The notes under the pieces are model-generated. The model saw nothing but the letters and a program-made list of their open reading frames with translations. It made no database searches and was not told the origin of the DNA. A stretch of 22,623 bases of DNA from the IMG/VR virus record IMGVR_UViG_3300025813_000006, positions 1 to 22,623 of that record, one strand, 5' to 3'. The DNA is from a virus. The stretch's first letter is position 1; each line of letters opens with the position of its first letter. Below are positions 1 through 22,370 of the stretch, one piece after another. Both the position numbers and the translations under genes were made by a program.

Positions 1-774
1 TCCGATCTGGTTGAACCTAGAGTTACTGGTACTGTTGACGTTCAGTATACGGTCAAAGACTCCGTATCTAATTTAGGAATATCCGGTGTCAAGGTTTGGA
101 TAACTGCTGATATTAGTAATTCTCAGAATCCCTTCTGGTTGGGTTACACTGACTTTGCAGGTGTGATACGGGATGCACAAGGCAACTATCCAAGACTAGA
201 CACAGGGGTTATGTACGTCTGGAAACACTCGGCTGGTTACATAGATGATCAAAACCCGCATACTATAGATACATCTGCTGCCACCGTATTTGAAGGTACG
301 ATGACAGCTGTACCAGCTGACGTAGATGACACTACTCCTGTTGTAGCTGCACAGCCATCGTATGCTTATGCTACGCCTGATGATTTTCAGAAGTATTGGT
401 TCTGGGACTTTGGTGACGGAGAAGAGTATGAGCAACTTTGGCCGTTGTTAAGGATGGCTTCTAGTAGAGTTACATCAGCACTATCAGCTAGTGATCAGCT
501 AGACTGTTCTCGCAGCGGATGGGGCGACGACTACTTGAAAGAGTTGTCAATTATAATCGCCGGAGTTATGTTTAACAGTCCTGCTGTTCGCTTGTCGAAT
601 GATCAGCGTGAAATCTATTCGCAATATGTCATACAAGCTCTTGATGGTTTAACGACTGGTGTGGTACAGATCTGCGATGGAGCTACTGGTAAAGGCTATC
701 CGGCCTATGAAACAGCACGCTACGGATTGACTGAACGCAACTACGCTCGTATTGTATCCGAAGAGAGCTACTAA
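1..774 (+). CDS. Connector/neck-like protein with N-terminal Ig-like or regulatory-like beta domain (5' partial)
   Basis: The frame is open from base 1, so the true start lies upstream; 257 residues are visible. Two parts can be seen. The first ~100 residues are beta-rich with the pattern of a carboxypeptidase-regulatory or Ig-like fold: GTVDVQYTV, then GISGVKVWITAD, then GYTDFAGV and a YVWKHSAGY strand. After a Pro/Val/Asp-rich linker (about residues 145-165), the C-terminal part begins YATPDDFQKYW and is helical, including WPLLRMASSRVTSALS and a Ser/Tyr-ending tail. That pattern resembles gp6/Ad1-type head-tail connector proteins. The next gene is an HK97 gp10-like completion protein, which fits a connector here. 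A TTG at 139 is the first in-window candidate start, but homology-like sequence continues upstream of it, so I treat the gene as truncated. It could instead be another virion decoration or neck protein; the connector call is inference from helix pattern and position. Confidence 0.6.
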   Translation, partial: SDLVEPRVTGTVDVQYTVKDSVSNLGISGVKVWITADISNSQNPFWLGYTDFAGVIRDAQGNYPRLDTGVMYVWKHSAGYIDDQNPHTIDTSAATVFEGTMTAVPADVDDTTPVVAAQPSYAYATPDDFQKYWFWDFGDGEEYEQLWPLLRMASSRVTSALSASDQLDCSRSGWGDDYLKELSIIIAGVMFNSPAVRLSNDQREIYSQYVIQALDGLTTGVVQICDGATGKGYPAYETARYGLTERNYARIVSEESY

Positions 775-1325
775 TGACTTATGGAGTAGTGTACAAAGCT
801 ACCAGAAAGAAAGGCATATTCGCATATCCTAAACAGGTCGTCAAGGAAGTAGAAAGTACGCTTGATGGAACAGTAAAGCGAACGCTAATCAAAACGTTTG
901 ATAAGGTGGTCGCTAATTGGGAATCAGATGTATCATTTGCTGCTAGAAAGTTCTTGCGAAGCGAAGCTATATGGGTTAATGTCTATCCAACAGGTGCGGA
1001 TAAGGAGGTGTGGCACTACGTAAACAGAGGTACTAGGAGACATATTATAGAAGCGAAAAATTATGTGCCACGAGGCCAATCAAGACCTAGACTGGTATTT
1101 GAATGGGGCGGTTACGGTTCGTATTCCCCCAAAACATTACCTGGTGGTAAATATGGTATGAGAGGTGGCGCATATGGTCCGCTTTGGTTTTTTGGATCTG
1201 TTGATCATCCCGGCAACGAGCCGCGTGAGTTCTCCAAAGTAATTGGAAGAGCGTATCAAAAACAATTTAATCGTGAGATCAAAAACGCCATTGCGCGTGG
1301 TAAAAGAAAAGCAAGGAGATTTTGA
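774..1325 (+). CDS. HK97 gp10-like tail/neck completion protein
   Basis: This 183-aa basic protein has the hallmarks of HK97 gp10-like proteins, which sit at the head-tail joint and cap or complete the tail. A long N-terminal helix (residues ~18-60) precedes the YVNRGTRRH segment, and near the C-terminus lies a SVDHPGNEPREF segment matching the conserved His-Pro-Gly...Phe signature of the family, followed by a helix of Lys/Arg residues. Its ATG overlaps the previous stop in TAATG, so translation is probably coupled to the connector gene. The C-terminus is strongly basic (KRKARRF). Length is close to the usual 120-190 aa of the family. The family call is from motif recognition and gene order, not from a search. 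Confidence 0.7.
   Translation: MTYGVVYKATRKKGIFAYPKQVVKEVESTLDGTVKRTLIKTFDKVVANWESDVSFAARKFLRSEAIWVNVYPTGADKEVWHYVNRGTRRHIIEAKNYVPRGQSRPRLVFEWGGYGSYSPKTLPGGKYGMRGGAYGPLWFFGSVDHPGNEPREFSKVIGRAYQKQFNREIKNAIARGKRKARRF
1313..1318 (+). promoter_or_regulatory. Ribosome binding site deciding the start at 1327
   Basis: AAGGAG lies 8 bases before the ATG at 1327. It selects this start over the in-frame ATG at 1243, which lies deep in the upstream gene and has no comparable site. Confidence 0.75.
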
Positions 1326-1326
1326 C

Positions 1327-1494
1327 ATGCCCATGAGAAGTCTGTATCATCAATCGAAGAAGAGCGTTACCGCTCAACAACTGGAGGAGCAGAAGAAACA
1401 GTTAGAAGCTGCTCTGAAGGCTGCTGCCAAGAAGGCCACGGCTACCACAAAGGCTGCCGCGAAACCGGCCGATACTAAGAAGGAGAGTAAGTAA
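1327..1494 (+). CDS. Small Lys/Ala-rich protein of unknown function
   Basis: The product is 55 aa. I chose the ATG at 1327 because a strong AAGGAG site precedes it; the frame also opens from 1243, but that would overlap the previous gene by 83 bases. Residues 1-17 are a short polar start (MPMRSLYHQSKKSV), followed by a predicted helix rich in Gln, Glu, Lys and Ala (AQQLEEQKKQLEAALKAAAKK) and then a low-complexity Ala/Lys/Thr tail. It has no Cys, no membrane segment and no recognisable domain. It sits between the tail completion gene and the putative major tail gene, overlapping the latter's ATG by TAATG, so it is expressed as part of the virion operon. Role unknown; a small tail or neck accessory protein is possible. 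Confidence 0.6.
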   Translation: MPMRSLYHQSKKSVTAQQLEEQKKQLEAALKAAAKKATATTKAAAKPADTKKESK

Positions 1495-2933
1495 TGAGCG
1501 AAACTGGTTTACAAAGTAATGTGTACACTACACAGGCCGGGAACGTCTACTTGAAGCAAGCTGGAACGTTTGGTCGCTATGTGTGGGGTGGACGTCGTAT
1601 GCGCATGGATGAAATCCAAGAAGCGCTTGGCGACGTGAGTACCACTACGAGGTTCGATCCTCGTGGCGGTGTACAACGTGATATGCTGCTATCGGACATC
1701 CCTGGCGTAGTTAGCACTACGTTGGTAATGAAGCATGAGCAACTGAACCGCATGAAAGCGGAACTGGCAGCCGGCTTCTGGAATGTAGATAAGCGTATGC
1801 ACGTTCAAGGGCGCGACCGTGATGCTCCTGACAAGTGGGCGGAAATACGCCGCTTGATGTGGGGCAAGGCTACGCAACGAACTGATCCTGGTACCAGTTG
1901 GGAAGCTGAGGAAGAAGGAATGATTCAGCTGCCATGGTCGGCTCTTGATGCGTATGACATCAACCCGGTTGTGTATGCTGAAGGTTCGTCCACTGTAGCC
2001 CATCAGATCGTTGATGTTCGAGCTGCCGTTATGGGTTCTGCGAATCCGAGTGACAACTTGCTATATGCTGTCAGTGGTAATCCTACGGTCGGAGATCCTG
2101 TTCTGCTAGTCAACGCTAACGGTGGAGCAGTTACCAGTTGGGTGGAAAGGGCGCTTACTGGTGAAACCGCTGTGCCTGTTGCAGTTCTGGGTCTAGGAGA
2201 CTTCGTGTTCATCTCGCTCGGAACCAAGATTATGCGCAGCGATGATCGTGGTGTCACCCTGACAGACATTACGCTAACAGACTGGGCAACGAACAATCTG
2301 CTACAGATGGACGCTTTGGATCAGGGCTTCATCTTAGGCTGTGGACAGAACGGTCGTATCTTTGCCTCGTTCGATGGCGCACGCACTTGGGAAATTTTGG
2401 TAGGAGCAGGCGGTCCAACTACCGAGAACTTGCTTCGCATACACATCTCGCGCAACAATCCACAAGTGGCCTGGGCATGTGGTGAGAATAACGCTCTTAT
2501 CAAAACTGAGAATGGCGGCTTCTCCTGGTTCTCGATTACCGGGCCTGCTGCCGCTGAGGACTTGTTAGGTCTGCATGTCGAAGACCCTGATTCTCTACTG
2601 GTACTTTCTGCTGAAGGTATTGTATATGAGACTTCAGACGGCGGAGATACGTGGATTCAACAGGGCGGATTGCCTGGCGTTACTGCTTCTGCATTCGCAC
2701 GTGGTAACATCGTCGGTACTCCAGCCGATGTTTACTATCTGTTCCTAAGCGATACTACCAATGGCGAGTTCGTCTTTCGTAATACCGAAGCTGGTGCTGA
2801 CGGCTATTGGTATCAGGTCGAACAGGCTACCGTTGGTGAGGAATTATATGGTATTGCTGCTGCCGATGTCAACGTTGCCTCAATCGTTGGCGGTACAGCA
2901 GATACCAGTAGCCTGGTAGCACTGGTTGCCTAG
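1494..2933 (+). CDS. Putative major tail (tube) protein with C-terminal Asp-box beta-propeller
   Basis: The 479-aa product occupies the major tail protein slot, after the gp10-like gene and before the chaperone-position genes and the tape measure gene. Residues ~1-165 form one region (beta strands plus the segment MKHEQLNRMKAEL) that I take as the tube-forming part, by position only. Residues ~165-479 carry repeated Asp-box (BNR-type) motifs: SDDRGVTL at 249, SFDGARTW at 292, TENGGFSW at 338 and TSDGGDTW at 380, spaced 43, 46 and 42 residues, with a degenerate copy near 429-440. That is the blade spacing of a six- or seven-bladed propeller like Ycf48, sortilin or sialidases. The residues of sialidase catalysis are not evident, so a structural or carbohydrate-binding role is likelier. 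AAGGAGA precedes the ATG. G+C is higher than in neighbours (52-53% in two 60-base rows counted, versus 33-38% in two tape-measure rows), which may reflect high expression or transfer. Propeller call strong; tube call moderate. Confidence 0.7.
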   Translation: MSETGLQSNVYTTQAGNVYLKQAGTFGRYVWGGRRMRMDEIQEALGDVSTTTRFDPRGGVQRDMLLSDIPGVVSTTLVMKHEQLNRMKAELAAGFWNVDKRMHVQGRDRDAPDKWAEIRRLMWGKATQRTDPGTSWEAEEEGMIQLPWSALDAYDINPVVYAEGSSTVAHQIVDVRAAVMGSANPSDNLLYAVSGNPTVGDPVLLVNANGGAVTSWVERALTGETAVPVAVLGLGDFVFISLGTKIMRSDDRGVTLTDITLTDWATNNLLQMDALDQGFILGCGQNGRIFASFDGARTWEILVGAGGPTTENLLRIHISRNNPQVAWACGENNALIKTENGGFSWFSITGPAAAEDLLGLHVEDPDSLLVLSAEGIVYETSDGGDTWIQQGGLPGVTASAFARGNIVGTPADVYYLFLSDTTNGEFVFRNTEAGADGYWYQVEQATVGEELYGIAAADVNVASIVGGTADTSSLVALVA

Positions 2934-3573
2934 CTTATTCATCACGGTAGATGGCACAGAGCTTCTCATTAACAGGGTTGAACGGGCTGCTATTGATACA
3001 TTCGTAGCAGCCCACCCTGAACCTCAGCCGCCTAGTATCAAGGTTGAGGTTTGGGGTGGTATATTAGAAGATATACCAGACTATGAAGATTTGACATACA
3101 AACAGGAAGTCCGAACCTTTCGTTTGGGCTTAGGTCAAGATCAGATGTCTATAATCTTCCCGGCTATAAGGATTGTCGGAAACCCTCCTGTGCCATCTCA
3201 GGAGTTACTAACACTTCTCAAAAAAGAAAAGCTTACTGACTACGAGTTAATGCAGTATGTCATTTTAGCTGATAAAAACGATTTGGAGTATATCGTAGAT
3301 GAAGTGTTATACTTATCTACTGTCACTATACGCGGTGTAATTGAGGCACAGAAAGCATTTAACGTTCGGTGGATGGATAAGGACGTTACAAAGTGGAAGG
3401 TAGCTCAGCTACCTGCTGATTATACTCCACTGTTTCGTGATCGACAAGTGGCTAAGTATTGCGATTATAATTGGAACAGTTTCTGCGAATTAACTGGGCC
3501 AGAACAGTCTGCGTGTGTCGCCTACTACTTAGCGGACAGGATGTTGGAATACTTATCAAGTAAATGGAGTTAG
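2926..3573 (+). CDS. Putative tail assembly chaperone, first gene (TTG start)
   Basis: This 215-aa protein lies between the major tail gene and the tape measure gene, where siphophages encode the chaperones (lambda G/GT equivalents) that coat the tape measure during assembly. The only start available is TTG at 2926, since an in-frame TAG lies at 2917-2919. It overlaps the tail gene by 8 bases and has no good Shine-Dalgarno site, so it is probably translated by coupling with the upstream gene. The N-terminus (LFITVDGTELL) is beta-like, and the C-terminal segment LTGPEQSACVAYYLADRM resembles the end of many chaperone-region proteins. There is no domain I can name with certainty. The gene order supports the call; the sequence evidence alone is weak. 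Confidence 0.45.
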   Translation: MPSLFITVDGTELLINRVERAAIDTFVAAHPEPQPPSIKVEVWGGILEDIPDYEDLTYKQEVRTFRLGLGQDQMSIIFPAIRIVGNPPVPSQELLTLLKKEKLTDYELMQYVILADKNDLEYIVDEVLYLSTVTIRGVIEAQKAFNVRWMDKDVTKWKVAQLPADYTPLFRDRQVAKYCDYNWNSFCELTGPEQSACVAYYLADRMLEYLSSKWS

Positions 3574-3577
3574 TGAT

Positions 3578-4000
3578 ATGGCCAAGAAGGAATTATTAGA
3601 AAATCAAGTTAGAATCGCGTCGTCCAAGATTGTATTGGACTGTCGCCCTGTTGCTTCAGGTGTCCTTCAAACGTTGTTATCTGAATTAGCAACTCTTGAA
3701 GGTGTTGACATTACTGATCCTGGAACAATACTGCTTGTAGGTGGGAGCCAACAAGCACAGGCAATACAAGCTTCTGAAAAGCTGTTCACGTATTGTACTG
3801 GATGGGGAGTTTCTAATGAGCCTCCGCAAAAACTATCAGAAGTGGCTCAACTTATGGGGGTACGTCCAGATCAACCCAATCTGAAAAGAGCAGCGTGGAT
3901 ACGCTACGACTTAGGAGCTACTCAGCAAGAACTAGGAGATGTAGTAGGTATAGTCATGGGACTTACTTTCACTCCGTCTGATAACGGTAAAGAGGAATAG
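3578..4000 (+). CDS. Conserved-looking protein in the tail assembly chaperone position, second gene
   Basis: A 140-aa protein begins 4 bases after the previous stop, with GGAG 8 bases before its ATG, so it has its own initiation site. It is immediately upstream of the tape measure gene. Visible features are two hydrophobic helical stretches (LLSELATLEGVDITDPG and ELGDVVGIVMGLTF), the motif LFTYCTGWGVSNEPP, and RAAWIRYDLGATQQEL. No catalytic motif is recognised. In lambda-like phages the second chaperone product is made by frameshifting from the first; here the frames differ by +1/-2 and I see no slippery sequence in the possible overlap (3533-3573). Independent translation is the simpler reading. 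It may be a second chaperone or a minor tail protein. Confidence 0.45.
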   Translation: MAKKELLENQVRIASSKIVLDCRPVASGVLQTLLSELATLEGVDITDPGTILLVGGSQQAQAIQASEKLFTYCTGWGVSNEPPQKLSEVAQLMGVRPDQPNLKRAAWIRYDLGATQQELGDVVGIVMGLTFTPSDNGKEE

Positions 4001-4003: not shown

Positions 4004-7000
4004 ATGGTAGGCGGTTTAGGTCTAAGCGCTGATGAGCAACTAGCTCTTCAAGTAATCGTAGAAGGCACAGGTCGATTCATGTCTGATATGAATCGAATCG
4101 ACAGAAGAATAGAAGGCACTACTGGCGGCTGGATGGGTATGTCAGGCATTGTTAGTGGTGCTTTAGCTACTGCTTTTGGTATCGCATTAGTAAAAGCTAT
4201 AGACGCTGCCGCCGAAGCGATGAAGCGCTTAGTTGCAGCAGGTCTGAACTATACTAAAGACGCTATAGATGATGCTCTTGACTTTGAACTGGCTATCACT
4301 AAATTAGACATCGCTGCACGTGATGCTAATGTTACTATGGAAGATTTGGAAGGAGCGTCATTTGCTTTAGGTAAAGACATAAATATAGTCGGTGTAGATG
4401 CCTACGAAGCTGCTGAAGGGTTAAGGACGCTATACCTAGCTGGTATTGATACTGATACGATCTTTGGTGAGGGCGGTTTAGAAAGTACTCTTGACGGAGT
4501 TAGTAGAACTACTGGTGCTTTCAAAAGTTCTGCCGACCTCGCTGCTGCATCGACTCTGGATCTGGACCGCGCCGCTAATCTAGCAGTAGTAACCGTAACA
4601 ACTTTTGGCGAAGAAGCACAAAATTTTGCTAGCGACGCTGAGTTCTTAGACTACGCATTTAATCTAATCGTACAGGTTGCAGATAGTACCACAGCTGAAA
4701 TTTCAGACTTCGAAGGAGCACTAAAGAATGTAGGCCCGACAGCATCAGGTCTGGGGTATCCTATAAGCGAAATATCTAAAGCTATTGGTATCCTATCTGA
4801 TCGTGGTATACGTGGTGCTGAAGCTGGTACTGCCCTGCGGCGTATGCTTGCTAATCTTAACCGTGATACAGCTAAGGTGCGCGAAGCTAATGAAGCATTA
4901 GGTGTAAGTCTATTTGACAGCGAAGGAAAGCTACGTAGTCTTGAAGATGTAATGATGGACTACTCTGCTGCACTCAATACTGATCCTAATAGTGTTGTAG
5001 CGTCTACCATATACGTTAAAGACGCAACAGCAGAACAGACACGCCAGTACCAAGAAGCAATTGATGTACTGGATTCTATGAATGAGAAGATAGCTGACCA
5101 CAATGCTGGGTTGAAGATCGTTTCCGATACAACATTAGAGAAGTATATAGCACAGCAAGGTAATGCTAATAGAGTTATTGCAGAATACAATGAGCTAGGA
5201 GTAATTGCTAAAGAGGTAACTAATCAACTTACAGAGGAGGAGCGTGCTAACTACGTTCAAACGTTAGCAGGTGTGTACGGTCAGAACGCATTCAACGCTC
5301 TAATAGGAGATGGCACAAATCAATTTGCTGCTCTTTCCGAAGAAATGGCCACAGCTACTAATCTTGGCGACCGTGTCACAGCTATGGCTGAGACTGGTCG
5401 AGGAGAGTGGGAGCGACTCACCAGTGTACTAGACACCGTGAAAATTCAATATGGTAGTCTATTCCTTGACGCATTAAAAGATGGAATAATTATACTACGT
5501 GAATGGCTAGTAGCTAATGATGAATGGATTCAAAATGGATTAGAACGTCTAGGTGAAGTCATTGGTGAATTAGCTGAGTGGGCGTTGCCTAAATTTTTAG
5601 AGTTCCTAGAAAAGCTTCCTGAATATGTTGATACCGCTAAAGAAGTATGGAATAATCTAACAAATGCCTTGCAGACAGGCGGCAACTGGATAGAGAAAAA
5701 CTTACTTCCTATACTTGATAAATTTGGTGAGTGGTTTGATATTATCAAACCGCTAATAGCTGGTGTAGCAGATACCGAAATTAACGCTCGTATGCTACCT
5801 GCATTTGAATCTGTCAAACAAGTGCTTGGCGACGATGTGATGCCACTTTTCGAGAGGATTGCAGACTTCTGGGATGAGAATTTACCAAAAGCTGCTGAAC
5901 ATTTTGGGAAGATATGGGAATCCTTTATAAAGCCAGCATTAGAAACGCTAGGTAAATTTGTAGCTACTGTTCTGATACCTGTAATCGGAAAATTAGTTAA
6001 GATCATAGGCACATGGTTGATAGGTTCGCTAGAAGGCTGGGCGAAGATCTACTTCGAGAGAATAGCTCCGCTAGTAGAAGATCTATTCGAGTGGTTAGGA
6101 GAGAATCTAGTACCAGCAATACAAGATTTAGTCGAATGGTTAGCAGAGAATCTGATACCAGCGTTAGAAGATTTCGCTAATTGGATTAACGAAGAAGGAC
6201 TACCTGCGCTATTTGAATTTTATGATACTGTTGTCGTAAAGGTGATAGAGGCTATATCTGATCTAGTAGCGTGGATAAAAGATGACCTGATACCAGCTGT
6301 ACAAGATTTCGCAACATGGCTAACTGAAGAAGCTATACCAGCATTAACCGATTTTTGGGAAATGTTAAGCGATAAAATCAGTACGGCTATCGAAACAGTT
6401 ACTAACTGGATTGAAGAGCATCTAGTACCGATATTCGAATCTCTGACATCTACTGTTAATGAAGATGTAATACCAGCTGTTGATTCACTTCATAAGTGGA
6501 TCGACGAATTCATAGTTCCTATATTTGAAAAGCTATCAGAGCTTGTTACTGAAGTATCTGATGTTGTCAAATTACTAGCTGAATCTGCGATAGATGCCTA
6601 CATCATACCAGCATTTGAGCGATTTCAAGAGCTAATAAATGAAAAGATAGTACCTGCGCTCACTGACGTATGGCATTGGGTTGAAGAAAAAGTAGGAGCT
6701 GCTCTCGAATGGTTAGAAGAGAACGTGCTACCTCCTGTAACAAATGCTTTTGCTGGAGCGCATGCTGTCCTGTTTGATAAGCTAATCCCGTCCTTGAAGG
6801 ACGCATGGCACTGGATTGAAGAAAAAGTAGGTGCTGCACTTCAATGGTTAGATACTGAAGTAGTACAGCCTGCAATAGAAACGCTTCAGAAACTATGGGC
6901 TAAGTTCAATGACGATATACTTCCTGTCTTAAAAGAAGTTAAGGATGCTATCGAAACTGGAGTAGGTTATTTCCTAAACTGGTTTATAGACGAAGTGGTA

Positions 7001-7387
7001 ACTAAAGCTAATGAAGTATTAAGAGGTCTTGAAAAAGTCTTAACAGATGTTAAGAATGGACTTCAATTTGTTATAGATAAGCTACGGTCGTTCAAAGAAT
7101 CGTTTGCTGGATTTACTGTACCTGAAATTCTACAAGGACACTCGCCCCCTCCGTTGTACTATTCGCTAAAATACATTGAAGGTGCTATGGATGATATTAG
7201 TAACAAAGCTGCTCCAAGGTTCACTAAAGCGATGAAAGCTCTACCCGCTCCTGCTTTTGCTATGGGCACTACTTTCAATAGTAATGTTATACAGAATAAT
7301 CAACAGTATAACTTAGAGACTAATACTTTAGTATCGGCTAGTGATCTAGCTCTCGAATTCCAAGAAATGCAAGTAGCGAGAAGGTAG
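4004..7387 (+). CDS. Tail tape measure protein (TP901-like core)
   Basis: The 1127-aa product is the longest in the window and follows the chaperone-position genes, as tape measure proteins do. This protein fixes tail length and leaves the tail ahead of the DNA at infection. Residues ~95-320 contain the TP901-type core, including AIGILSDRGIRGAEAGTALRRML (about 260-282) and LGVSLFDSEGKL. Hydrophobic segments occur at ~43-66 and ~648-675. From residue ~560 to ~975 the protein is an amphipathic helical repeat with prolines on a 15-residue register (see the repeat entry). Near the end are HSPPPLYYSL and an Asn/Gln-rich segment. At 0.15 nm per residue the whole chain would span about 169 nm if fully helical, a rough upper guide to tail length. 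No peptidase or lysozyme domain is visible. Start ATG at 4004 is preceded by GAGGAAT. Confidence 0.9.
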   Translation: MVGGLGLSADEQLALQVIVEGTGRFMSDMNRIDRRIEGTTGGWMGMSGIVSGALATAFGIALVKAIDAAAEAMKRLVAAGLNYTKDAIDDALDFELAITKLDIAARDANVTMEDLEGASFALGKDINIVGVDAYEAAEGLRTLYLAGIDTDTIFGEGGLESTLDGVSRTTGAFKSSADLAAASTLDLDRAANLAVVTVTTFGEEAQNFASDAEFLDYAFNLIVQVADSTTAEISDFEGALKNVGPTASGLGYPISEISKAIGILSDRGIRGAEAGTALRRMLANLNRDTAKVREANEALGVSLFDSEGKLRSLEDVMMDYSAALNTDPNSVVASTIYVKDATAEQTRQYQEAIDVLDSMNEKIADHNAGLKIVSDTTLEKYIAQQGNANRVIAEYNELGVIAKEVTNQLTEEERANYVQTLAGVYGQNAFNALIGDGTNQFAALSEEMATATNLGDRVTAMAETGRGEWERLTSVLDTVKIQYGSLFLDALKDGIIILREWLVANDEWIQNGLERLGEVIGELAEWALPKFLEFLEKLPEYVDTAKEVWNNLTNALQTGGNWIEKNLLPILDKFGEWFDIIKPLIAGVADTEINARMLPAFESVKQVLGDDVMPLFERIADFWDENLPKAAEHFGKIWESFIKPALETLGKFVATVLIPVIGKLVKIIGTWLIGSLEGWAKIYFERIAPLVEDLFEWLGENLVPAIQDLVEWLAENLIPALEDFANWINEEGLPALFEFYDTVVVKVIEAISDLVAWIKDDLIPAVQDFATWLTEEAIPALTDFWEMLSDKISTAIETVTNWIEEHLVPIFESLTSTVNEDVIPAVDSLHKWIDEFIVPIFEKLSELVTEVSDVVKLLAESAIDAYIIPAFERFQELINEKIVPALTDVWHWVEEKVGAALEWLEENVLPPVTNAFAGAHAVLFDKLIPSLKDAWHWIEEKVGAALQWLDTEVVQPAIETLQKLWAKFNDDILPVLKEVKDAIETGVGYFLNWFIDEVVTKANEVLRGLEKVLTDVKNGLQFVIDKLRSFKESFAGFTVPEILQGHSPPPLYYSLKYIEGAMDDISNKAAPRFTKAMKALPAPAFAMGTTFNSNVIQNNQQYNLETNTLVSASDLALEFQEMQVARR
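5708..6925 (+). repeat. 15-residue (45-base) periodic proline repeat inside the tape measure gene
   Basis: Within the tape measure protein, prolines fall at residues 569, 599, 614, 644, 659, 689, 704, 719, 734, 764, 779, 809, 824, 839, 869, 884, 929 and 974. All fit 569+15n, and several skipped positions are multiples of the same unit. Typical units read W-L-x-E-x-L-I-P-A-x-x-D-F. The unit WHWVEEKVGAALEWL and its copy WHWIEEKVGAALQWL are 45 residues apart; at the DNA level 6671-6717 and 6806-6852 match at 41 of 47 bases, 135 bases apart. The protein period is far better conserved than the DNA. Confidence 0.85.
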
Positions 7388-7388: not shown

Positions 7389-8588
7389 ATGACAAAGACT
7401 TACCCTTTAGAAAGAGACGAGATACTAGTACCAACTTATAATGGGTATAGATTATACCCCATTATGATGTTGCTCGGCATGAACTATAGTTCAATGGCTG
7501 GACGTAGAGGTTTAGGTATGGCGCAAGTCAGATTCTTAACTGACTCAAGTCCATACCAACACGGTGAATCTGTTCAGGGTATTAGATGGAATACTCGCCA
7601 AATACAGATACTTGTCAACGACCAGCAAAAGTCGTTGATAGACTACTGGCAAAAAAGGGATCTTTACCTTGACCTTTTACGTCCAAGCAGATCAACCATC
7701 ACTAAAGATAAACTCATAAAGCCATTTATCTATAGAAAGTGGCTGCCTGGTGGCAAGTTGTATCGTGGTACAGATATGATTGTAACTAACGGTTTATCTT
7801 ATGTGACTACTCCTACTGGTCACTTTATCAGCAACGGTGGCTTAGAAGCAGGAGATCAAATAACGATAGGCGGTGTAAATTATACCATAGCCATCGCTGC
7901 GAACGATTCTGAGCTATACCTGGCCAGTAGCTATGCCGGCTCTACATCGTCAAATGCGTCCTGGAGATACTTGTCAAAACAAGTGTATAGAGAGATAACT
8001 TTTATACTTGGATCAGGTTTGGAGTTTGATGAGAGGGGATCAGATCAGATACTACCATATGGCTTCCAGGAAGTATTGCGTCTTGTCTGCCACGACCCTT
8101 TGTGGAGAGGACGAGAGCAACAACGTATATGGACACTACCAGAAACTTATGGAGACCTGATATTCGATGGTGAAGGGGCTTGGTTTGGAACATCTGGTAT
8201 CAGCGGCAGATGGGAATTTGAAACTACATATCTTTCTGAATCAGCAGAAATTCAATATACAGGACATGAAGTAGCTAGACCTATCATTACCATACGCGGT
8301 CCGGCACACTATCCTAGAATATCCAATGAACAACTAGGTATTACTCTAAGCCTAGAATACGTTGTGAGTATTGGAGAAGAGGTAGTAATAGATATTGATA
8401 ACTTATCTGTAACTACTAATCAAGGAAACAATCTCTTACCATATCTTCGCGGCAATTTATCAGGATTCGCTCTAGTCCCTGAACCAGCTGCTCCTGACGG
8501 AGTTAATACTATTGTAATTACTATGGGGGACGCCGACACTAACACCTATGCCTCTGTCAAGTGGCAAAATGTGTACATAGGAATATAA
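7389..8588 (+). CDS. Distal tail protein (Dit-like)
   Basis: The 399-aa protein comes directly after the tape measure gene (one base gap), the usual place of Dit, the hexameric ring at the tail tip that links tube to baseplate. The N-terminal part (residues ~45-100) has the beta-strand pattern of siphovirus tail component proteins, with VRFLTDSSPYQHGESVQGIRW and RQIQILVNDQ. A central DPLWRGREQQRIWTLPE segment and a C-terminal beta-rich region (HEVARPIITIRGPAHYPRI ... YASVKWQNVYIGI) follow, as in longer Dit proteins that carry an extra carbohydrate-binding-like domain. A beta insertion around residues 125-190 includes VTTPTGHFISNGGLEAGDQI. The SD-like GAGAAGG lies in the end of the tape measure gene. 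The family name is inferred from position and pattern. Confidence 0.65.
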   Translation: MTKTYPLERDEILVPTYNGYRLYPIMMLLGMNYSSMAGRRGLGMAQVRFLTDSSPYQHGESVQGIRWNTRQIQILVNDQQKSLIDYWQKRDLYLDLLRPSRSTITKDKLIKPFIYRKWLPGGKLYRGTDMIVTNGLSYVTTPTGHFISNGGLEAGDQITIGGVNYTIAIAANDSELYLASSYAGSTSSNASWRYLSKQVYREITFILGSGLEFDERGSDQILPYGFQEVLRLVCHDPLWRGREQQRIWTLPETYGDLIFDGEGAWFGTSGISGRWEFETTYLSESAEIQYTGHEVARPIITIRGPAHYPRISNEQLGITLSLEYVVSIGEEVVIDIDNLSVTTNQGNNLLPYLRGNLSGFALVPEPAAPDGVNTIVITMGDADTNTYASVKWQNVYIGI

Positions 8589-8597
8589 GGAGATAAG

Positions 8598-9620
8598 ATG
8601 ACACAAAATTCCATTCCTCAAACTGGTCATATTGATGACAATGTATCCCCTGATGCCGGCCCTTATTCTGCTGTAGAATGGTCTGCTGTATGGTCTAGTA
8701 TATTAACATCAGGCGTTAATCAAGGCCCAATAGGCATTATTGGAGACGATTCGCTAGCAGTAACAAATCCTAGCGGCACTACTATTAACGTTGCTGCTGG
8801 AGACGCTATGGTAGGAGGAAGAAATTTTCGGAACGATGCCTCCCTTAGCTTCAGTGTAGCCTCTCCTTCAGCTAACCCCAGAATAGACGTAGTGGTAGTA
8901 GTTCAAAATGAGTCAAATAGCTCTATAACCGCTGGAATAGCTTCAGGTAATGACTTGTCATTTCCAACATCGCTAACTGACTATCAGGGAAGCGCATCTG
9001 TACCACCATACTCAGCCAGAGTAGCAATTCTGAAAGGCACAGAAGCAGCTAGCCCTTCTGCTCCTACACTCGATCAGAACGCAGCCTTGCTGTACATGAT
9101 ACCGTTAGCACAGTATCAAATAAGCACAGGTGGTACTATATCGGCGCTTACTAATCTAAGAGAGTTTACTGTAAGCGCAGGTGGCGGTAACGCTTATGTA
9201 GATACTGTTATCGAATATCCTAGTGGTGGCCCTATGGATCAGATAGGATATAATGGCAGGGTTCGTATAGTGCCAATGCGTTTGTATTTCAACTTCGTTG
9301 GTAGTACTTCAATGAACATCTCATTTGAAAATGAAGATGACCCTCTGCTAGGATATGATGAATATGCGACGTTCTTCTTTTGGACGGTTAATCCTCAACA
9401 AACATACTCAACTTTTGATGGTAAAGTAAACGGTTTAGGCTTCACTATATATAAATCTCCAGGTGAATCGTTTATACGCATATACGGTTATAGAGCAGGC
9501 TATGTAGACAATGCTGGAACTGCACAGGCTCCTCCAACTAATGAAACAGTTGTAATAGACTGTATGTTAGTCCAGTTGCTAGATCAAGCACCATTATCGT
9601 TCAAGAGTATAGCAGGATAA
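8598..9620 (+). CDS. Baseplate/tail tip protein with BppU-like N-terminal domain
   Basis: This 340-aa protein has a strong AAGGAG site five bases before its ATG. Residues ~50-185 show a pattern shared by many siphophage baseplate proteins: INVAAGDAMVGGRNFRND, then NPRIDVVVVVQN, then ARVAILKGTEAASPSAP and YMIPLAQYQIS with a closing LTNLREF. These match the upper-baseplate/receptor-binding-associated domain in which a small beta domain positions fibres. Residues ~190-340 form a second beta-rich domain (MRLYFNFVGSTSMNISFENEDD, FIRIYGYRAGY) that I do not recognise; a carbohydrate-binding or host-contact role would fit. It ends in TAATG shared with the next gene. No enzymatic motif is seen. Confidence 0.6.
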   Translation: MTQNSIPQTGHIDDNVSPDAGPYSAVEWSAVWSSILTSGVNQGPIGIIGDDSLAVTNPSGTTINVAAGDAMVGGRNFRNDASLSFSVASPSANPRIDVVVVVQNESNSSITAGIASGNDLSFPTSLTDYQGSASVPPYSARVAILKGTEAASPSAPTLDQNAALLYMIPLAQYQISTGGTISALTNLREFTVSAGGGNAYVDTVIEYPSGGPMDQIGYNGRVRIVPMRLYFNFVGSTSMNISFENEDDPLLGYDEYATFFFWTVNPQQTYSTFDGKVNGLGFTIYKSPGESFIRIYGYRAGYVDNAGTAQAPPTNETVVIDCMLVQLLDQAPLSFKSIAG

Positions 9621-10819
9621 TGACATACACTGGTGAGGTTAGTTACAGATTAGATCTAGTTGATCACGATGACAACGTGGTCACTACGTTCGCTGGTTTT
9701 GGATATGGTACTCCTAATCGCGGTGGGTTGCACAGCTTCTCCTATCGTAAGAGGCTCAACTCGTCTGGTGCTATAGCAGTACGTATATGGGGCGAAGACC
9801 AGCGAATAGAAGAATTCCTACGGCTTGATATAGGATTCGATTATCGTTGGCGAATTTACAGAACTGATCCTCTATGGGACAATAAGGAGCGTAAGGACTT
9901 TGTAGCGTTTCATCGTGGAGAAGAAGATGATCAGTTTAACTCTGGAGAATTCCTATATACCAGCTTCGGTACTGGATTAAATGACTTCATCTACTCCGAA
10001 GGCATTGATTGGTATTCTGGTAGTCCACAGTCTAGTAAATCAGGTGATATTGCTACAGTAGCCTACGAGTTCGTCAACGAGAACATCGGTCCCGCAGCTG
10101 GTAATGATAGCGATGGTAGACCGCGTGTTAGGCCACGTTTGGTGGCATTATATCCTGCCCTGTGCGGTAAGAGCTGGACTGGTGGTAGAGCGTATTTACA
10201 ACTAGGAGATGTGTTAGAAGAGCTGGCAGAATTAGCGCCAGGTGACTTTCTAATAAAAGAAGAAGATAATCCATCAGGGCCAGGAGGAGCATATCAGTTC
10301 TATTGGAGCTGGAAGTCTCCTAGATGGGGAAAAGACAGAACTATCGGTAATACAGAAGGAAACAAACCGCTAGTGTTCAGTGCTGATCATAGGAATATTC
10401 AAGACTACAAAAGCAACTACTCGCATTTAGACGAAATAAATGTAGTAACTGTTGTAGGACAAGGTGTAGGAGAATCTCGCAGGAGAGCTATGGCTGCTAG
10501 GGATTCTACTTTATCACGTTCTCCTTGGGCTAGAAGAGCTGTTGTACGTGACTTGAAAAGTGCCACAGATGATGAGCTACAATTTAGAGCAGACGAGCAT
10601 CTGGTAGCTGGTTCTCCGAAGCAGAAAATGAAATTTGACCTGCGACAAGACGTCAATACACGGTATGGTAGAGACTGGGACATAGGAGACTTGGTTCACG
10701 TAGTACACAAAGAACGACAGGCTAAGATGAAGATTATAGGTGTGACAGTAACACTACAGAAAGAAGGCTACGAAAAGATCACACCTGAGTTTATCACTGA
10801 ATGGAGTCAGTTCGCCTAA
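9620..10819 (+). CDS. Tail hub/Tal-like protein (siphovirus Gp37-like family)
   Basis: The 399-aa product follows Dit and a baseplate protein, where the tail-associated hub protein is expected. Its pattern fits the Gp37-like proteins named after Rhodococcus phage ReqiPepy6. An N-terminal strand region (LDLVDHDDNVVTTFAGFGYG) is followed by FSYRKRLNSSGAIAVRIWG, a middle segment with FGTGLNDFIYSEGIDWYSGS, and a C-terminal segment with QKMKFDLRQDVNTRYGRDWD, IGDLVHVVHK and KMKIIGVTVTLQKEGYEKI that resembles the closing domain of hub proteins. There is no peptidase or lytic domain in it, unlike many longer Tal proteins; the lytic domains are three genes downstream. ATG overlaps the previous stop (TAATG). 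Confidence 0.6.
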   Translation: MTYTGEVSYRLDLVDHDDNVVTTFAGFGYGTPNRGGLHSFSYRKRLNSSGAIAVRIWGEDQRIEEFLRLDIGFDYRWRIYRTDPLWDNKERKDFVAFHRGEEDDQFNSGEFLYTSFGTGLNDFIYSEGIDWYSGSPQSSKSGDIATVAYEFVNENIGPAAGNDSDGRPRVRPRLVALYPALCGKSWTGGRAYLQLGDVLEELAELAPGDFLIKEEDNPSGPGGAYQFYWSWKSPRWGKDRTIGNTEGNKPLVFSADHRNIQDYKSNYSHLDEINVVTVVGQGVGESRRRAMAARDSTLSRSPWARRAVVRDLKSATDDELQFRADEHLVAGSPKQKMKFDLRQDVNTRYGRDWDIGDLVHVVHKERQAKMKIIGVTVTLQKEGYEKITPEFITEWSQFA

Positions 10820-12729
10820 TGACTAAAGAAGGAGATCGTCTACGAAATGTAGAAACGCGCGAAAGTGCTGGTATGATAGAAGTACCAGGAGATCCAAATA
10901 CTGGCGCTGGTACAGCTGGTGCTCCTGGCATGTTTGCTATCCGTCCCACCAGTGGATTGTTGTATTACAACTCTGATGGTGAACCTGATGGATGGGTAGA
11001 ACTTGGAATAGCTACTGGCGGTGGTGAAGCTAACACTGGCACCAATATAGGAACCGGCGCTGGAGTATATGCAGGAAAAGTAACTACTGTACTTCAGTTC
11101 CGTAGTCTTATTGGTACTGCTCCCATCGTTGCTACTCAAAATGCTAATGACATCACTTTTGATTTAGACATCAATAGCCTAACTACGATTACTACTCCTA
11201 CTACTGGCGACGAGCTGATCATCGAGCGCGCCGGGACACAATACAAGATTGACTTCACCACTTTCGCTAGTGGTAGTTTAAATTCTGTATCAAACATTGG
11301 CACAGGTGCTGGAGTCTACAAGCAAGTAGTTTCCGGTGATGTGGAGCTTCGTAGTCTAATTGGCACCGCTCCTGTTGTTGCTACTCAAAACGCCAATGAC
11401 ATCACTTTCGACTTAGATGTCGCTGGTCTTACTACTATAACCAGCCCGACTACCGCAGACTATCTAATAATAGAAAGGTCTGGCACGCAATACAAGATTG
11501 ATTTTACTACCTTTACTGGTAGCGGCGAGGCCAATACAGGTACAAATCTTGGCGCAGGGTCGCAGGTCTACAAAGGAATGTCGGGAACTGTATTACAGTT
11601 TCGTAGTATCATAGTTTCATCTCCAATAACTATCGCTCAAAACGCAGATGATCTTACTTTTGATTTTGATATTACCGGACAATCAGATGCTCCATCATCA
11701 CCTCCGCCAGCCGGCGACTACTTTATAGGTCAAGCTACTGTAGGTGGAGCGTTTTACCGAGTACCATTTTCAGATTTAGGAGAAGTAAATCTAGTCGAAA
11801 GCGCGTCTAGTGTAGGAACCGGTGTTGGATTATATTATGCACTAACGGTTAAGACGTTGCAGTTCAGGTCTATTGTCGGCGGTGAAGGTATAGCTGCTAG
11901 TTTATCTCTTGCTGCTACTGACGTAGACATAGACTTAGATATAAATGCCATAACTACTACAGGTACTCCTGATACCGCTGATTACATAGCTTACCACGAT
12001 GTAGGTGTAGGTATTAAAAAATCTACTGTATCAGATCTTGCTTCTGTTTTAGGTAGTGGCTTTATAACAGGTGCTACTAGCTTAACTACAACCAATCATG
12101 TATATGAAGGAGAAGTTAGTCAGGTACTGAGATTCAGAGGATTAGCTCTAGCTGATTCATCTATACCTATTACAATTACTCAAGGAGCGACTGCTTTAAC
12201 GTTTGATTTCAGTATTGCTAATACTGCTACTGCTCCAGGATCACCAGATAGCGCTGATATACTAGTAGTAGAGAAATCATCAGACGGCTCTCACTACAAG
12301 CTACCACTATCAGAATTTGCTACAGTATCGCCACACGGTGGTGATTGGATTCGTACTACGGATACTGCCTTAACTACAAGTTCATTTTATGATATAGTAT
12401 GGGAAACTGAGAATCGTGATACAGATGGTATATGGAGTAGTGGTGCTAATCTTACTATACAAACTGCTGGTACTTATATAATAAAATTAGAGTGTGCGTT
12501 CGCTTCTAACGCTACACCCTATGCGTGTCAAGCTCTTATAGACTACGAAGGAGCTTATATAGCATCTCAAAAAATACAAACAGCAGCTAATGAGGTTCTG
12601 CGAATACAATCAGTAGGGGTACAAGACTGTTCGATAGGAGATGTGATCAAAGGAACAGCTAGGCATACAGCTGGATCTAACAGAAACTTAATAGAAGCCA
12701 AAATACAAATTCATAAACTGTCAGATTAA
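10819..12729 (+). CDS. Tail fibre with five ~85-residue repeats and a C1q/TNF-like C-terminal domain
   Basis: I use the ATG at 10819 (636 aa) because it forms the same TAATG overlap seen at other junctions, with GGAG upstream; an in-frame ATG at 10801 would add six residues. The N-terminal ~75 residues (including GAPGMFAIRPTSGLLYYN and WVELG) form an attachment segment. Then come five repeats, each with a G-T-G-A-G-V-Y opening, a LQFRSL strand, ITFDLDI, a Thr/Pro-rich turn and an IERxGTQYKIDF-type closing strand. The last ~130 residues have the pattern of a C1q/TNF jelly roll: IWSSGANLTIQTAGTYIIKL, then QALIDYEGAYIAS, ending EAKIQIHKL. Such tips commonly bind host surface glycans or proteins. 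Host receptor unknown. Repeats 1 and 2 are the most alike. Confidence 0.75.
   Translation: MTKEGDRLRNVETRESAGMIEVPGDPNTGAGTAGAPGMFAIRPTSGLLYYNSDGEPDGWVELGIATGGGEANTGTNIGTGAGVYAGKVTTVLQFRSLIGTAPIVATQNANDITFDLDINSLTTITTPTTGDELIIERAGTQYKIDFTTFASGSLNSVSNIGTGAGVYKQVVSGDVELRSLIGTAPVVATQNANDITFDLDVAGLTTITSPTTADYLIIERSGTQYKIDFTTFTGSGEANTGTNLGAGSQVYKGMSGTVLQFRSIIVSSPITIAQNADDLTFDFDITGQSDAPSSPPPAGDYFIGQATVGGAFYRVPFSDLGEVNLVESASSVGTGVGLYYALTVKTLQFRSIVGGEGIAASLSLAATDVDIDLDINAITTTGTPDTADYIAYHDVGVGIKKSTVSDLASVLGSGFITGATSLTTTNHVYEGEVSQVLRFRGLALADSSIPITITQGATALTFDFSIANTATAPGSPDSADILVVEKSSDGSHYKLPLSEFATVSPHGGDWIRTTDTALTTSSFYDIVWETENRDTDGIWSSGANLTIQTAGTYIIKLECAFASNATPYACQALIDYEGAYIASQKIQTAANEVLRIQSVGVQDCSIGDVIKGTARHTAGSNRNLIEAKIQIHKLSD
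11023..12345 (+). repeat. Five diverging in-frame repeats in the fibre gene
   Basis: Anchor codons of the conserved opening (NIGTGAGVY and variants) lie at 11044, 11293, 11545, 11809 and 12079, spacings of 249, 252, 264 and 270 bases (83, 84, 88 and 90 residues). Copies 1-3 are similar at both DNA and protein level; copies 4 and 5 are more degenerate. All spacings are multiples of three, consistent with in-frame duplication and recombination among repeats. Confidence 0.8.
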
Positions 12730-12754
12730 TTAGGACGTAACAAGGGAGAAAGTG

Positions 12755-12946
12755 ATGTCCAATAAAGATAGTGAAACAATGAACACCTATTCACAAACAG
12801 AATTAGAAGAAAAACTTGCTAGGCTACAAGAAGCCCGTAAGGTAATGGTCGAAAAAGCTAATCGTGAAATAGCACAACTAGATGGCGCGATTGCTTTTTT
12901 GGTTCAATTACTAGCAGGTGAGCTAGACAAGGAAAGCGACAACTAA
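12755..12946 (+). CDS. Small coiled-coil protein of unknown function
   Basis: The product is 63 aa from the ATG at 12755 (a GTG at 12752 is in frame directly before it; GGGAGA just upstream favours the ATG by spacing). After a polar start, residues ~15-55 form one continuous predicted helix with heptad-like Leu/Ile/Val/Ala placement (ELEEKLARLQEARKVMVEK, then IAQLDGAIAFLVQLL). It has no Cys and no hydrophobic stretch long enough for a membrane span, so it does not look like a holin. It lies between the fibre gene and the lysin gene and ends in TAATG with the lysin gene. It could be a fibre or lysin assembly partner; no family recognised. Confidence 0.65.
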   Translation: MSNKDSETMNTYSQTELEEKLARLQEARKVMVEKANREIAQLDGAIAFLVQLLAGELDKESDN

Positions 12947-15243
12947 TGGACGGGTATAACAAAGTATTCTTCCACATGAGTAGTCAAGGTATTCGTACAG
13001 GATGGGGCGATCTTGTGCGAGCCTGCGATGCTGCTGGCATACCCGTTTCTGTAATGTCAGTAGGAGGAGAAGGAATTGGTGACATAGTAGCACAATGGGA
13101 TGCTGGAAGCACAGTCCCCCATGTGCCAGTATTTCGTCCAAACGGAAACGATGTTCCACCTTACGGTGCTAATATCGAAACCGCTGCTCCCGAGTGGTGG
13201 GCGTGGATGAAAAGCCAGTTCTCTAAGGAGATATATCGTTACCATGATAGAATTGTTATTAAACATGGTAATGAGCTAGACAAGAATCAGTCAGACTGGT
13301 TAGGCCAGTTCTTTACCAGAGTTGCTAAATTAGCCATGTCAGACCCAGATGGGCCATTTATAACCGCCCCTTTCGGATTCTCCGCTGGCGAGCCTGAACA
13401 AGCAGATTGGATAACTCCTGGCATGAAGGAGTATCTATACTTAGCACATTCGTTTCCGTACTACGTCTACATATGCCTACATGAGTACTCCTTAGACGCA
13501 TCTAACATATTCGCAGATTCTCCATACAACGTTGGTCGGTTTCTGATGCTGTTTAGCATCTGCGATGAGTTAGGGCTGCGACGACCTAACATAGTATTAC
13601 ATGAGGTTGGATGGGAACTAGGTGATATTCCTGACACTCCGACTGCGATGGCGCAGCTGAACTCCCTTGCTGAATTGTATGCTTACTATCCTGAGATAAA
13701 AGGTGCCGGTATATGGACTACTCAACCTTATAACAACACTGGCATAGAAAAGAAAGTAAGCGCATTGATACCCCTCGTCAAAGAAATGACACTCAATAAT
13801 CGTTATCCTGTAGGAGAGACAGTGCCACCAGAACCAAAGCATAAAGTTGTCGTCTACAAGCTGGCCCAGGAGCATACCAGGGAACAGTGGCAAGAGATTG
13901 CCGATATAGCTCATGACGACTATAAAAGGACACAAACTGCTAGTCATAATGATGCAGAGACGATGTACCTGGAGGGTAACGAAGAATCGTATATTGTAGT
14001 AATCGATCCAGAGTTAGCAAGTCAACAACATGCTATACAGTATTTTGCTGAACGGGGCTACATGTATCAGACTAAGTATATATTCACTGAACCCCCAACT
14101 CAGCCAGAGACGTTTAAATATAGCGTTTGGCCTACTGTAGAACATCGTATTACACAATATTTTGGCGAGCATCCTGAGAATTACAACAAGTACGGCTTTC
14201 CAGGACACGAAGGTATAGACCTTGCTGCTCCTTTAGGCTCCGCTATTTACGCTCCAGAAGGCGGCGTAGTGATAAAGGTGTCTGATAAGACATCGAGTGG
14301 TAATCTAAGCAATTATGGTCAGCATGTGATTATAGACCATGAGAATGGATACTACACCACACTAGGTCATCTGAGATATGATACGCTAGTACAAGTTGGT
14401 GATCGCGTAGACGCCAGCCAGATCATTGGTTACTCAGGTAATACTGGTAATAGTTATGGAGCACATCTGCACCTCACGCTCAAAAAAGACGGATACGTGC
14501 ATCCTGGTTGGGAGTGTTGTCCTGGCTACAAAGACCCGCTACCTCATTTACAGTCTGCACAAATTCCGCCAGGACAAGGTGAGCTAATATACCTTGTACC
14601 GTACCTTCGTCCAGCTGACTTGAGAGGTAGACTATACGAGGTAGAGACAAAGATAGACGGAGTGAGCCATGGTCAACAGCGACACCAAAGTCAACGAGAC
14701 GCTGATAGTAGTATATTCTACCATACTAAAGGTGGTGACGGGCCTTCTCATCCGGCTGAATGGGAGCAGCTAGACATACAGGACGGTCACATCAGGCGAT
14801 ATATTGACACATCAATGGGTGGCGGTAGATATTACACATTAACGAAGCAAGGCACAGACGAACCTTTCGTGGATTGGCTACTTACTAGCATGAGGATCAA
14901 TCAGGTGTTTGTCAGCTACCCCTTAGTAACTATTCACAATAAAGATACCTGCAACATGGTTAGCGGTCCAGATGCCACCACTGACTATCTGAAGCTTGCC
15001 AGGAAACATGATACGTTCGAGTGCTACAACGGCATCATACTACAGGACGTGATAGAGATTCACTGGTCGAAATCTCCTACTTTTGAAAGAGTCGAGGAGA
15101 AATACTTCTACTCTAAAGACCCCCGAGCAGAAGGTTTAGTTGGTTGGGGAAGTTTAGTAAGTGGGAAAGTTGCGAGGGTGAGTGAACTACACGATCCTGG
15201 TCAGCGTCCTGATAACTTTAGAGAAACAGGATGCTTTAGCTAG
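12946..15243 (+). CDS. Multidomain lysin: GH-A-like glycosidase domain plus M23 peptidase
   Basis: The 765-aa protein has at least three parts. Residues ~1-285 look like a TIM-barrel glycosidase of clan GH-A: IVIKHGNE (N109-E110, strand-4 acid/base position), ICLHE (H179-E180) and IVLHEVGWE (E220, candidate strand-7 nucleophile), then KGAGIWTTQP. Residues ~298-380 are a linker domain I do not recognise. Residues ~395-515 are an M23/LytM metallopeptidase with all zinc and catalytic residues: H421 and D425 in GHEGIDLAAP, H475 in LGH, H507/H509 in AHLHL. Residues ~540-765 are an unassigned C-terminal domain, possibly cell-wall binding. There is no signal peptide or membrane segment. Together the two domains would cut glycan strands and peptide cross-links. 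Position after the fibre, with no holin nearby, allows either an endolysin or a virion-borne lysin. M23 is certain; glycosidase likely; substrate unknown. Confidence 0.85.
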   Translation: MDGYNKVFFHMSSQGIRTGWGDLVRACDAAGIPVSVMSVGGEGIGDIVAQWDAGSTVPHVPVFRPNGNDVPPYGANIETAAPEWWAWMKSQFSKEIYRYHDRIVIKHGNELDKNQSDWLGQFFTRVAKLAMSDPDGPFITAPFGFSAGEPEQADWITPGMKEYLYLAHSFPYYVYICLHEYSLDASNIFADSPYNVGRFLMLFSICDELGLRRPNIVLHEVGWELGDIPDTPTAMAQLNSLAELYAYYPEIKGAGIWTTQPYNNTGIEKKVSALIPLVKEMTLNNRYPVGETVPPEPKHKVVVYKLAQEHTREQWQEIADIAHDDYKRTQTASHNDAETMYLEGNEESYIVVIDPELASQQHAIQYFAERGYMYQTKYIFTEPPTQPETFKYSVWPTVEHRITQYFGEHPENYNKYGFPGHEGIDLAAPLGSAIYAPEGGVVIKVSDKTSSGNLSNYGQHVIIDHENGYYTTLGHLRYDTLVQVGDRVDASQIIGYSGNTGNSYGAHLHLTLKKDGYVHPGWECCPGYKDPLPHLQSAQIPPGQGELIYLVPYLRPADLRGRLYEVETKIDGVSHGQQRHQSQRDADSSIFYHTKGGDGPSHPAEWEQLDIQDGHIRRYIDTSMGGGRYYTLTKQGTDEPFVDWLLTSMRINQVFVSYPLVTIHNKDTCNMVSGPDATTDYLKLARKHDTFECYNGIILQDVIEIHWSKSPTFERVEEKYFYSKDPRAEGLVGWGSLVSGKVARVSELHDPGQRPDNFRETGCFS

Positions 15244-15286
15244 TGTGTCAGCTATTCCGCAAGGGGTAGTAGTCACTTTCTCCATT

Positions 15287-15328
15287 GGTAGTGGTGAATG
15301 TGCGCAGACATCCACCACTACCTTTTTT
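15287..15328 (+). terminator. Intrinsic terminator of the + strand virion operon
   Basis: A perfect 10-bp stem (GGTAGTGGTG at 15287-15296 with CACCACTACC at 15313-15322) is extended, across one mismatch, by ATGT/ACAT (15298-15301 and 15308-15311) closing a 6-base loop. Six T residues follow at 15323-15328. On the opposite strand the hairpin is not followed by a U-run, so it terminates + transcription only. It lies 44 bases past the lysin stop. The rest of 15244-15336 shows no gene. Confidence 0.9.
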
Positions 15329-15336
15329 ACTAATAG

Positions 15337-15867
15337 CTAGTTACGATCTCGACCGCCACCAAACTCGAAGCCGTCAGGGTAACGCTCCTTATGTAGCTTC
15401 TCAATGTTGTACTTCAACACGTCGTCAACTGGTATCCAATACACATTGCTAATAGCAGTCAATGCGTTCCAGATACTCAGCATCGCAGTTGAAACACGGT
15501 CGTTAACAGCTCTCATAGCGTCCATATCGTAACCAGCTTTAGCAGCTGTGGTAGCAAGATACCAGTGGACATCCCCCAACTCGTCTATAAGATCAGGCAC
15601 GCTGATATCCTGCTTGTGAAATACCATCTTCTTTATCAGATCAATTAGTTCACCAGCTTCTCCTACTAGGCCCATGATCGTAAAGTGTAATGGAGTAATC
15701 TCATGAGTGTCTATCAGCTTAAACTCTCTTACTAGCAGAGAGACGCTCATAGTGATGTTGAAGCAAGCCTGCAACAGTACTTGCTCCTCCAACTCCAGCG
15801 ACAAGTCATCTTGGCGCATAGTCTCCAGTGCCAAGGCTTGATACTCGTTCCAGTTGTTTAATTTCAT
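15337..15867 (-). CDS. MazG-like nucleotide pyrophosphohydrolase
   Basis: The product is 176 aa from the ATG at 15867, which has AGGAG seven bases upstream; an in-frame ATG at 15885 lies before that site and is unlikely. The MazG signature is clear: GLVGEAGELIDLIKK (E-x-G-E motif) followed about 18 residues later by DELGDVHWYLA (E-x-x-D motif), the acidic residues that bind Mg2+ and hydrolyse nucleoside triphosphates to monophosphates. The end, YNIEKLHKERYPDGFEF, is also typical. Unusual are an extra helical stretch before the signature (LLQACFNITMSVSLLVREF) and an insert of about 30-40 residues between GYDMD and the YNIEKL segment. Phage MazG proteins are linked to nucleotide pool cleaning or to lowering host (p)ppGpp; which applies here is not visible. 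ATG overlaps the preceding stop (ATGA). Confidence 0.9.
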   Translation of the reverse strand: MKLNNWNEYQALALETMRQDDLSLELEEQVLLQACFNITMSVSLLVREFKLIDTHEITPLHFTIMGLVGEAGELIDLIKKMVFHKQDISVPDLIDELGDVHWYLATTAAKAGYDMDAMRAVNDRVSTAMLSIWNALTAISNVYWIPVDDVLKYNIEKLHKERYPDGFEFGGGRDRN

Positions 15868-16439: not shown

Positions 16440-16462
16440 AATATAGTCTCCTTTACCATCGT

Positions 16463-22301: not shown

Positions 22302-22334
22302 TAGCTACTCCTGAATAAGTAAAACAGTAAAAAT

Positions 22335-22370
22335 AAAAAAAGGGTGGCGGCAGCATTGCCACCACCACCC
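22335..22370 (-). terminator. Intrinsic terminator between the SSB-like gene and the primase-helicase gene
   Basis: Read on the - strand, GGGTGG at the outer end pairs with CCACCC across an inner GC-rich stem with some G-T wobbles and a small loop (22342-22370), followed by seven T residues (22335-22341) and a further AT-rich stretch. It would stop or attenuate transcription entering from the right. I see no convincing promoter in the 33 bases between it and the primase-helicase ATG, so read-through may feed the downstream genes. Confidence 0.8.

Follow-up and report, generated by a model that had tools for sequence, protein, structure and literature searches.

To date, the decorations reported on tail tubes are Ig-like domains of small size, arms and CBM extensions. 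The major tail proteins (MTPs) of lambda (gpV), T5 (pb6) and Douge, as well as YSD1_22, each combine an N-terminal domain of the tube fold with an external C-terminal domain encoded in the same frame, and their genes lie upstream of that for the tape measure protein. Loss of the C-terminal domain lowers the activity of lambda 100-fold (PMC8718954), and the Ig-like domains of the Douge tube and capsid, expressed alone, bind the host surface and have been proposed to keep the virion flat against the cell (PMC13033339). In 936 phages, extended MTPs (MTP-TpeX) bind host cells (PMC6669499); both in 936 TpeX (PMC6669499) and in gp17.1* of SPP1 (PMC8718954), a frameshift decorates only a fraction of the copies.

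The ORF at 1494-2933 (+) of the window (the whole stretch of DNA analysed, 22,623 nucleotides) starts with ATG and encodes a 479-aa protein, P0001, which shares both the domain plan and the gene position of the lambda, T5, YSD1_22 and Douge proteins. Its sequence, folds, gene order and family conservation were computed, and they make it very probable that a tube domain and a seven-bladed propeller are joined here in one siphovirus-type MTP. The tail module reads as follows:

1..774 (+), head-tail adaptor-like connector, its 5' end cut by the window (PHROG 137 head-tail adaptor Ad1, E 2.5e-4)
774..1325 (+), tail-completion or neck-like protein (PHROG 5 tail completion/Neck1, E 0.017, a weak match)
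1494..1988 (+), tail-tube domain, residues 1-165, a predicted beta-sandwich with a helix at 81-92 (AF2, Foldseek against PDB and BFVD, family N-domain profile)
1989..2930 (+), predicted C-terminal seven-bladed Asp-box beta-propeller, residues 166-479 (PSII_BNR, Foldseek, Asp-boxes, family HMM)
2926..3573 (+), probable tail assembly chaperone (by position and resemblance only; no significant family)
3578..4000 (+), small ORF in the second chaperone slot (by position only; no family)
4004..7387 (+), tail tape measure protein, 1127 aa (PHROG 1533, E 1.3e-54; Pfam PhageMin_Tail, E 1.3e-26)
7389..8588 (+), distal tail (Dit)-like protein (Pfam SPP1_Dit, E 2.4e-6; PHROG 33 Dit and PHROG 106 minor tail)
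9620..10819 (+), Gp37-like minor tail or hub protein (Pfam Sipho_Gp37, E 4.3e-16; PHROG 538, E 2.3e-22)

The initial annotation had placed four Asp-boxes at residues 249, 292, 338 and 380, 42-46 residues apart. The motifs lie at exactly these positions (249 SDDRGVTL, 292 SFDGARTW, 338 TENGGFSW and 380 TSDGGDTW; spacings of 43, 46 and 42 residues), and both PSII_BNR and Foldseek agree with them. When P0001 was shuffled 20,000 times and searched with the same pattern, none of the shuffled sequences held at least three motifs (mean 0.04); chance clustering was thus ruled out, by a test that is somewhat generous in that the pattern had been composed with the P0001 motifs already in view. Pfam PSII_BNR matched residues 274-388 (E 4e-7, 30 bits against a cut-off of 27), phmmer aligned P0001 with Ycf48 (8am5) at E 4.4e-6, and the propeller HMM of the family described below matched it at E 1.3e-20. 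The full-length AF2 model, calculated from a 28-sequence alignment (pLDDT 79, pTM 0.79), displays seven consecutive strand groups at about residues 172-478. In a Foldseek search with this model Ycf48, one of the folds that the initial annotation had put forward for comparison, ranked first (E 1.7e-12, TMt 0.74). As modelled, the C-terminal two thirds of P0001 is a closed seven-bladed Asp-box propeller, with the repeat S/T-x-D-x-G-x-x-W/F clearly recognisable in only four of the seven blades. The initial annotation was therefore right about the location of the propeller and wrong about its blade count, which is seven and not five; its degenerate fifth motif, RNTEAGADGYWYQ (about residues 429-441), sits in blade 6 of the model.

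Sialidases and GH74 xyloglucanases are among the Asp-box propellers, and the Foldseek matches of the model also contained GH74 structures. An enzymatic propeller (sialidase or GH74-like), digesting matrix along the tail, is nevertheless very improbable: the top matches are to Ycf48, which is non-enzymatic, no Pfam glycosidase profile scored above its cut-off for P0001, and no glycosidase family was common among the matches of its relatives.

The N-terminal part was examined separately. Residues 1-166, modelled alone by AF2 (pLDDT 83.7), form a beta-sandwich with a flanking helix, and the best 50 Foldseek matches of this model in the PDB were all tail, tube, connector or baseplate structures. 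The best E-value was 6.5e-5, and the query-normalised Foldseek TM-scores were moderate, from 0.35 to 0.59. Among the matches listed were the tubes of diffocin, AFP, PVC, cyanophage A-1(L), phiCD508, T4 and T1; contractile systems are represented among the nearest tubes, and neck and baseplate proteins of the tube fold were found as well. In BFVD, the first match was a 'Tail tube protein' of an uncultured phage. The isolated model thus agrees with the tube identity first proposed for residues 1-165, as does the synteny considered below. At the sequence level, P0001 had no PHROG match to a known tail-tube family, its relatives matched PHROGs of unknown function or nothing, and the N-domain profile retrieved no tube chain from the PDB sequences, chance matches only. 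P0001 was accordingly filed as an MTP by fold and synteny, not by sequence. The stopper, terminator and distal tail proteins of RcGTA have the same tube fold (PMC7296036); since this fold is common to several tail ring proteins, gene order is also needed for the assignment. Tube fold and gene slot together rule out a stand-alone tail fibre or a fibre fusion.

Relatives of P0001 were not retrieved when viral contigs were scanned with the P0001, gp37-like and tape measure proteins singly, nor when P0001 was compared with genome contigs and phage records. They first surfaced in a search of viral contigs with a double Asp-box DNA pattern, which returned 60 loci; at 11 of these, the encoded proteins have 480-530 aa and share an N-domain, and most are followed 0.8-1 kb downstream by an ORF of tape measure size. 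A nine-sequence alignment was too divergent to serve as a query. As the Asp-box pattern itself selects for propellers, the second search used the N-domain alone, and yielded 23 viral loci and four loci in MAGs of the class Anaerolineae (one from an all-taxa scan and three from 396 genomes of the class). An Asp-box propeller was present in all 25 complete single ORFs thus recovered; the remaining two loci are truncated at a contig end (L076) or split at the domain border (L079). The tube-propeller fusion is therefore not an isolated case, and characterizes a whole family of uncultured phages, about 30 in number. PHROGs identified a tape measure protein at 11 of the relatives (L063, L068, L086, L070, L077, L082, L074, L028, L007, L060 and L015), and did not match one to the downstream ORF of L067. 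Distances between tube domains and between propellers correlate strongly across the family, the window being left out of this comparison (Mantel r 0.72, 0 of 2000 permutations), which indicates that the two fused domains have for the most part been passed on together.

Several variations on the common plan were observed. In L079 the tube domain (7962-8495) and the propeller (8504-9472) are encoded by two adjacent ORFs that part precisely at the linker, where a TAG is followed by an ATG with GGAG upstream; gene fission, a programmed frameshift and a sequence error are all compatible with this arrangement. Tandem tube-propeller genes within one tail module occur in L069 (7998-9443 and 9472-10923), L071/L072 (7989-9443 and 9453-10925) and L042 (10246-11757 and 11774-12856), the second copy in L069 and L071 stopping early, without the final propeller strand. 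Such tandems suggest tubes built from two propeller-bearing proteins. In most of the relatives in the range L063-L086, the tube domain has cysteines in common and the linker carries a Cys-rich motif that ends in CG; disulphides or metal binding are possible.

P0001 itself stands apart from these proteins, with a mean identity to the family of about 16% in the tube domain and about 21% in the propeller. It lacks the family cysteines, and carries KQAGTFG where the relatives have QPDGPNT. Its N-domain is linked to the family profile weakly, and above chance in a one-to-one comparison (hhalign P 9e-6; hmmsearch E 5e-6 at Z=1, about 0.08 at Z=10,000). The much stronger propeller match is in itself no proof of common descent, since the family propeller HMM also finds unrelated Asp-box proteins. 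Judged by sequence, P0001 would be either a divergent member of the family or a sister lineage of it.

The gene order around P0001 bears out the 'major tail protein slot' of the initial annotation. Connector and completion-like genes (the latter a weak assignment) come before the ORF, and two small ORFs and a tape measure gene recognised by both PHROGs and Pfam come after it, followed by the Dit-like and gp37-like genes. By eye, the motif TFDKVVANWESDVSF in the product of 774..1325 resembles KDFKKTVATWDTKVKF at the equivalent position in relatives, and 2926..3573 occupies the slot in which the relatives have ORFs of 174-215 aa bearing P-P-x-Y-x-V...GG. Neither the window nor the relatives read yielded a sheath gene, and a contractile tail was therefore rejected. 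P0001 could instead be a minor protein of the tube fold (a terminator, an adaptor ring or an end ring) with a receptor-binding propeller in 6-12 copies, the real tube gene lying beyond the window. The sharing of this fold among tail ring proteins would allow such a role, and the window is a fragment without head genes. We nonetheless consider it improbable: the place of P0001, directly ahead of the chaperone-slot ORFs and the gene for the tape measure protein, is that of the major tail gene, and Dit-like and tail-completion-like genes exist separately. No second tube-like gene was found in the window, and eight relatives, read completely and as far as 8 kb upstream, showed no other tube candidate between the completion and tape measure genes. 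The initial annotation had held that P0001 would be a minor decoration protein if its N-terminal part did not fold like a tube and another tube gene were found; the outcome on both points favours the MTP. An overlapping contig, L002 (IMGVR_UViG_3300004007_000014), comes from the same virus, being 100% identical over window positions 11174-22623; it runs 4.8 kb past the right end of the window, and the genes tested there belong to replication (exonuclease, Sak4-like and SSB-like).

Other genes of the window deserve brief mention. The 642-aa product of 10801-12729 (+) is a likely fibre; it matched no family, and contains several copies of an internal repeat of ~80-90 residues (NxGTGAGVY...LQFRSL...I). 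The 765-aa protein encoded at 12946-15243 (+) has an M23 peptidase at its centre (420-516), and its N-terminal ~290 residues look glycoside hydrolase-like by eye and have no profile match. At 16675-19218 (-), a uracil-DNA glycosylase domain is fused to an exonuclease-PolA; PHROG 17 spans this fusion, and we therefore regard it as a known phage arrangement and not as a novelty.

The host of the family is probably a member of the Chloroflexota (Anaerolineae), a link made by MAG binning only. One all-taxa scan and four genomes of the class agree on it, and a phylum-wide draw of 400 genomes matched none beyond the one already known. The label 'Anaerolineae prophage' was treated with reserve for L086: those stretches of its 101 kb MAG contig that were read look phage-like by eye and contain no tRNA.

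From these data we infer how the protein may assemble, in how many copies, with which orientation and to what effect. Residues ~1-165 would assemble into the tail-tube rings, with the last ~314 residues forming a propeller on the C-terminus of the tube domain. As this is the site of the Ig-like domains in lambda gpV, T5 pb6 and Douge, the propeller should face outward. Tube domain and propeller share one reading frame without a frameshift, and the genes read included no tube gene lacking the decoration, so that one propeller is expected per tail subunit; provided that P0001 is the tube protein, the tail would probably be coated along its length. JBD30 has 270 MTP copies and a tape measure protein of about 1150 aa (PMC11445458); by analogy, the 1127-aa tape measure protein encoded here would correspond to about 230-270 P0001 subunits per tail, each displaying a propeller of ~35 kDa.

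The likeliest role of such a coat would be that of a weak multivalent adhesin, by which the virion would be held at the host surface or matrix while the tail tip seeks its receptor. We lean somewhat towards this putative function. Because the Ig-like domains of SPP1 are dispensable (PMC8718954), the propeller could also be structural or accessory, and the main rival to adhesion keeps the same architecture without host binding: adjacent propellers would pack into a sleeve, lending the tail stiffness or protection or controlling polymerisation. The propeller is slightly better conserved than the tube domain (mean family identity of 35% vs 32%), and the two are inherited together, a pattern less typical of receptor binders that evolve fast; the propeller is missing from no complete ORF recovered, and a circumference of about 68-79 A per subunit, at a radius of 65-75 A, fits one propeller each. 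Against the sleeve, most of the tube decorations known are attached loosely, and assembly is possible without them (PMC8718954, PMC9022992); the separate tube and propeller ORFs of L079, if real, imply that the tube does not require a covalent propeller. A purely structural role is rather unlikely, though a far stronger contender than the minor-protein and enzymatic readings, and weak multivalent adhesion is favoured over it. Considered as a whole, the proposal that phages of the Chloroflexota (Anaerolineae) bear tails fully clad in propellers, multivalently adhesive, fixed in the lineage, unlike Ig-like or CBM decorations and sometimes duplicated into two-protein tubes, is a tentative one. 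The large size of the propeller, its known fold and the possibility of expressing it by itself would allow adhesin and armour roles to be told apart for tube decorations.

The fold of the P0001 propeller is a familiar one. Its best match in both fold and sequence is Ycf48/HCF136, the photosystem II assembly factor, also a seven-bladed Asp-box propeller; that protein is a stand-alone cellular one acting on D1, and the likeness is one of fold only. Asp-box repeats are also known from tail structures, namely the cyanophage baseplate wedge initiator and the tail fibre of Caulobacter phage Percy, in which they belong to baseplate or fibre proteins, whereas those of P0001 belong to a tube protein. 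Among 50,697 phage records, Asp-box arrays were confined to baseplate proteins of cyanophages, a tail fibre, a BNR-repeat protein and a single record without annotation; none was in an annotated MTP, and no record matched the tube-propeller family. Two reviews of tail tube proteins (PMC8718954, PMC9022992) list only Ig-like domains and arms, and do not use the word 'propeller'. No propeller was found as a tube decoration in the literature searched, which was partial in coverage, so that an earlier description may exist. A decorated tube is thus of a known kind, while the propeller as its decoration appears undescribed in that literature. The family moreover makes major tail genes recognisable in uncultured phages for which no PHROG model assigns them.

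The closest parallel in size is the MTP with TpeX of the 936-group lactococcal phages, which like P0001 has 470-530 aa, a core of ~165 residues and a large adhesive C-terminal extension; there, a BppA-like CBM is added by programmed frameshift to part of the copies, whereas the propeller of P0001 is in frame. Lambda gpV, T5 pb6, YSD1_22 and Douge add an Ig-like fold of ~90 residues, in contrast to the seven-bladed propeller of ~314 residues in P0001, which is twice the size of its own tube domain. Borne by every subunit, and in every complete relative recovered, such a propeller would change what the surface of a tail can be.
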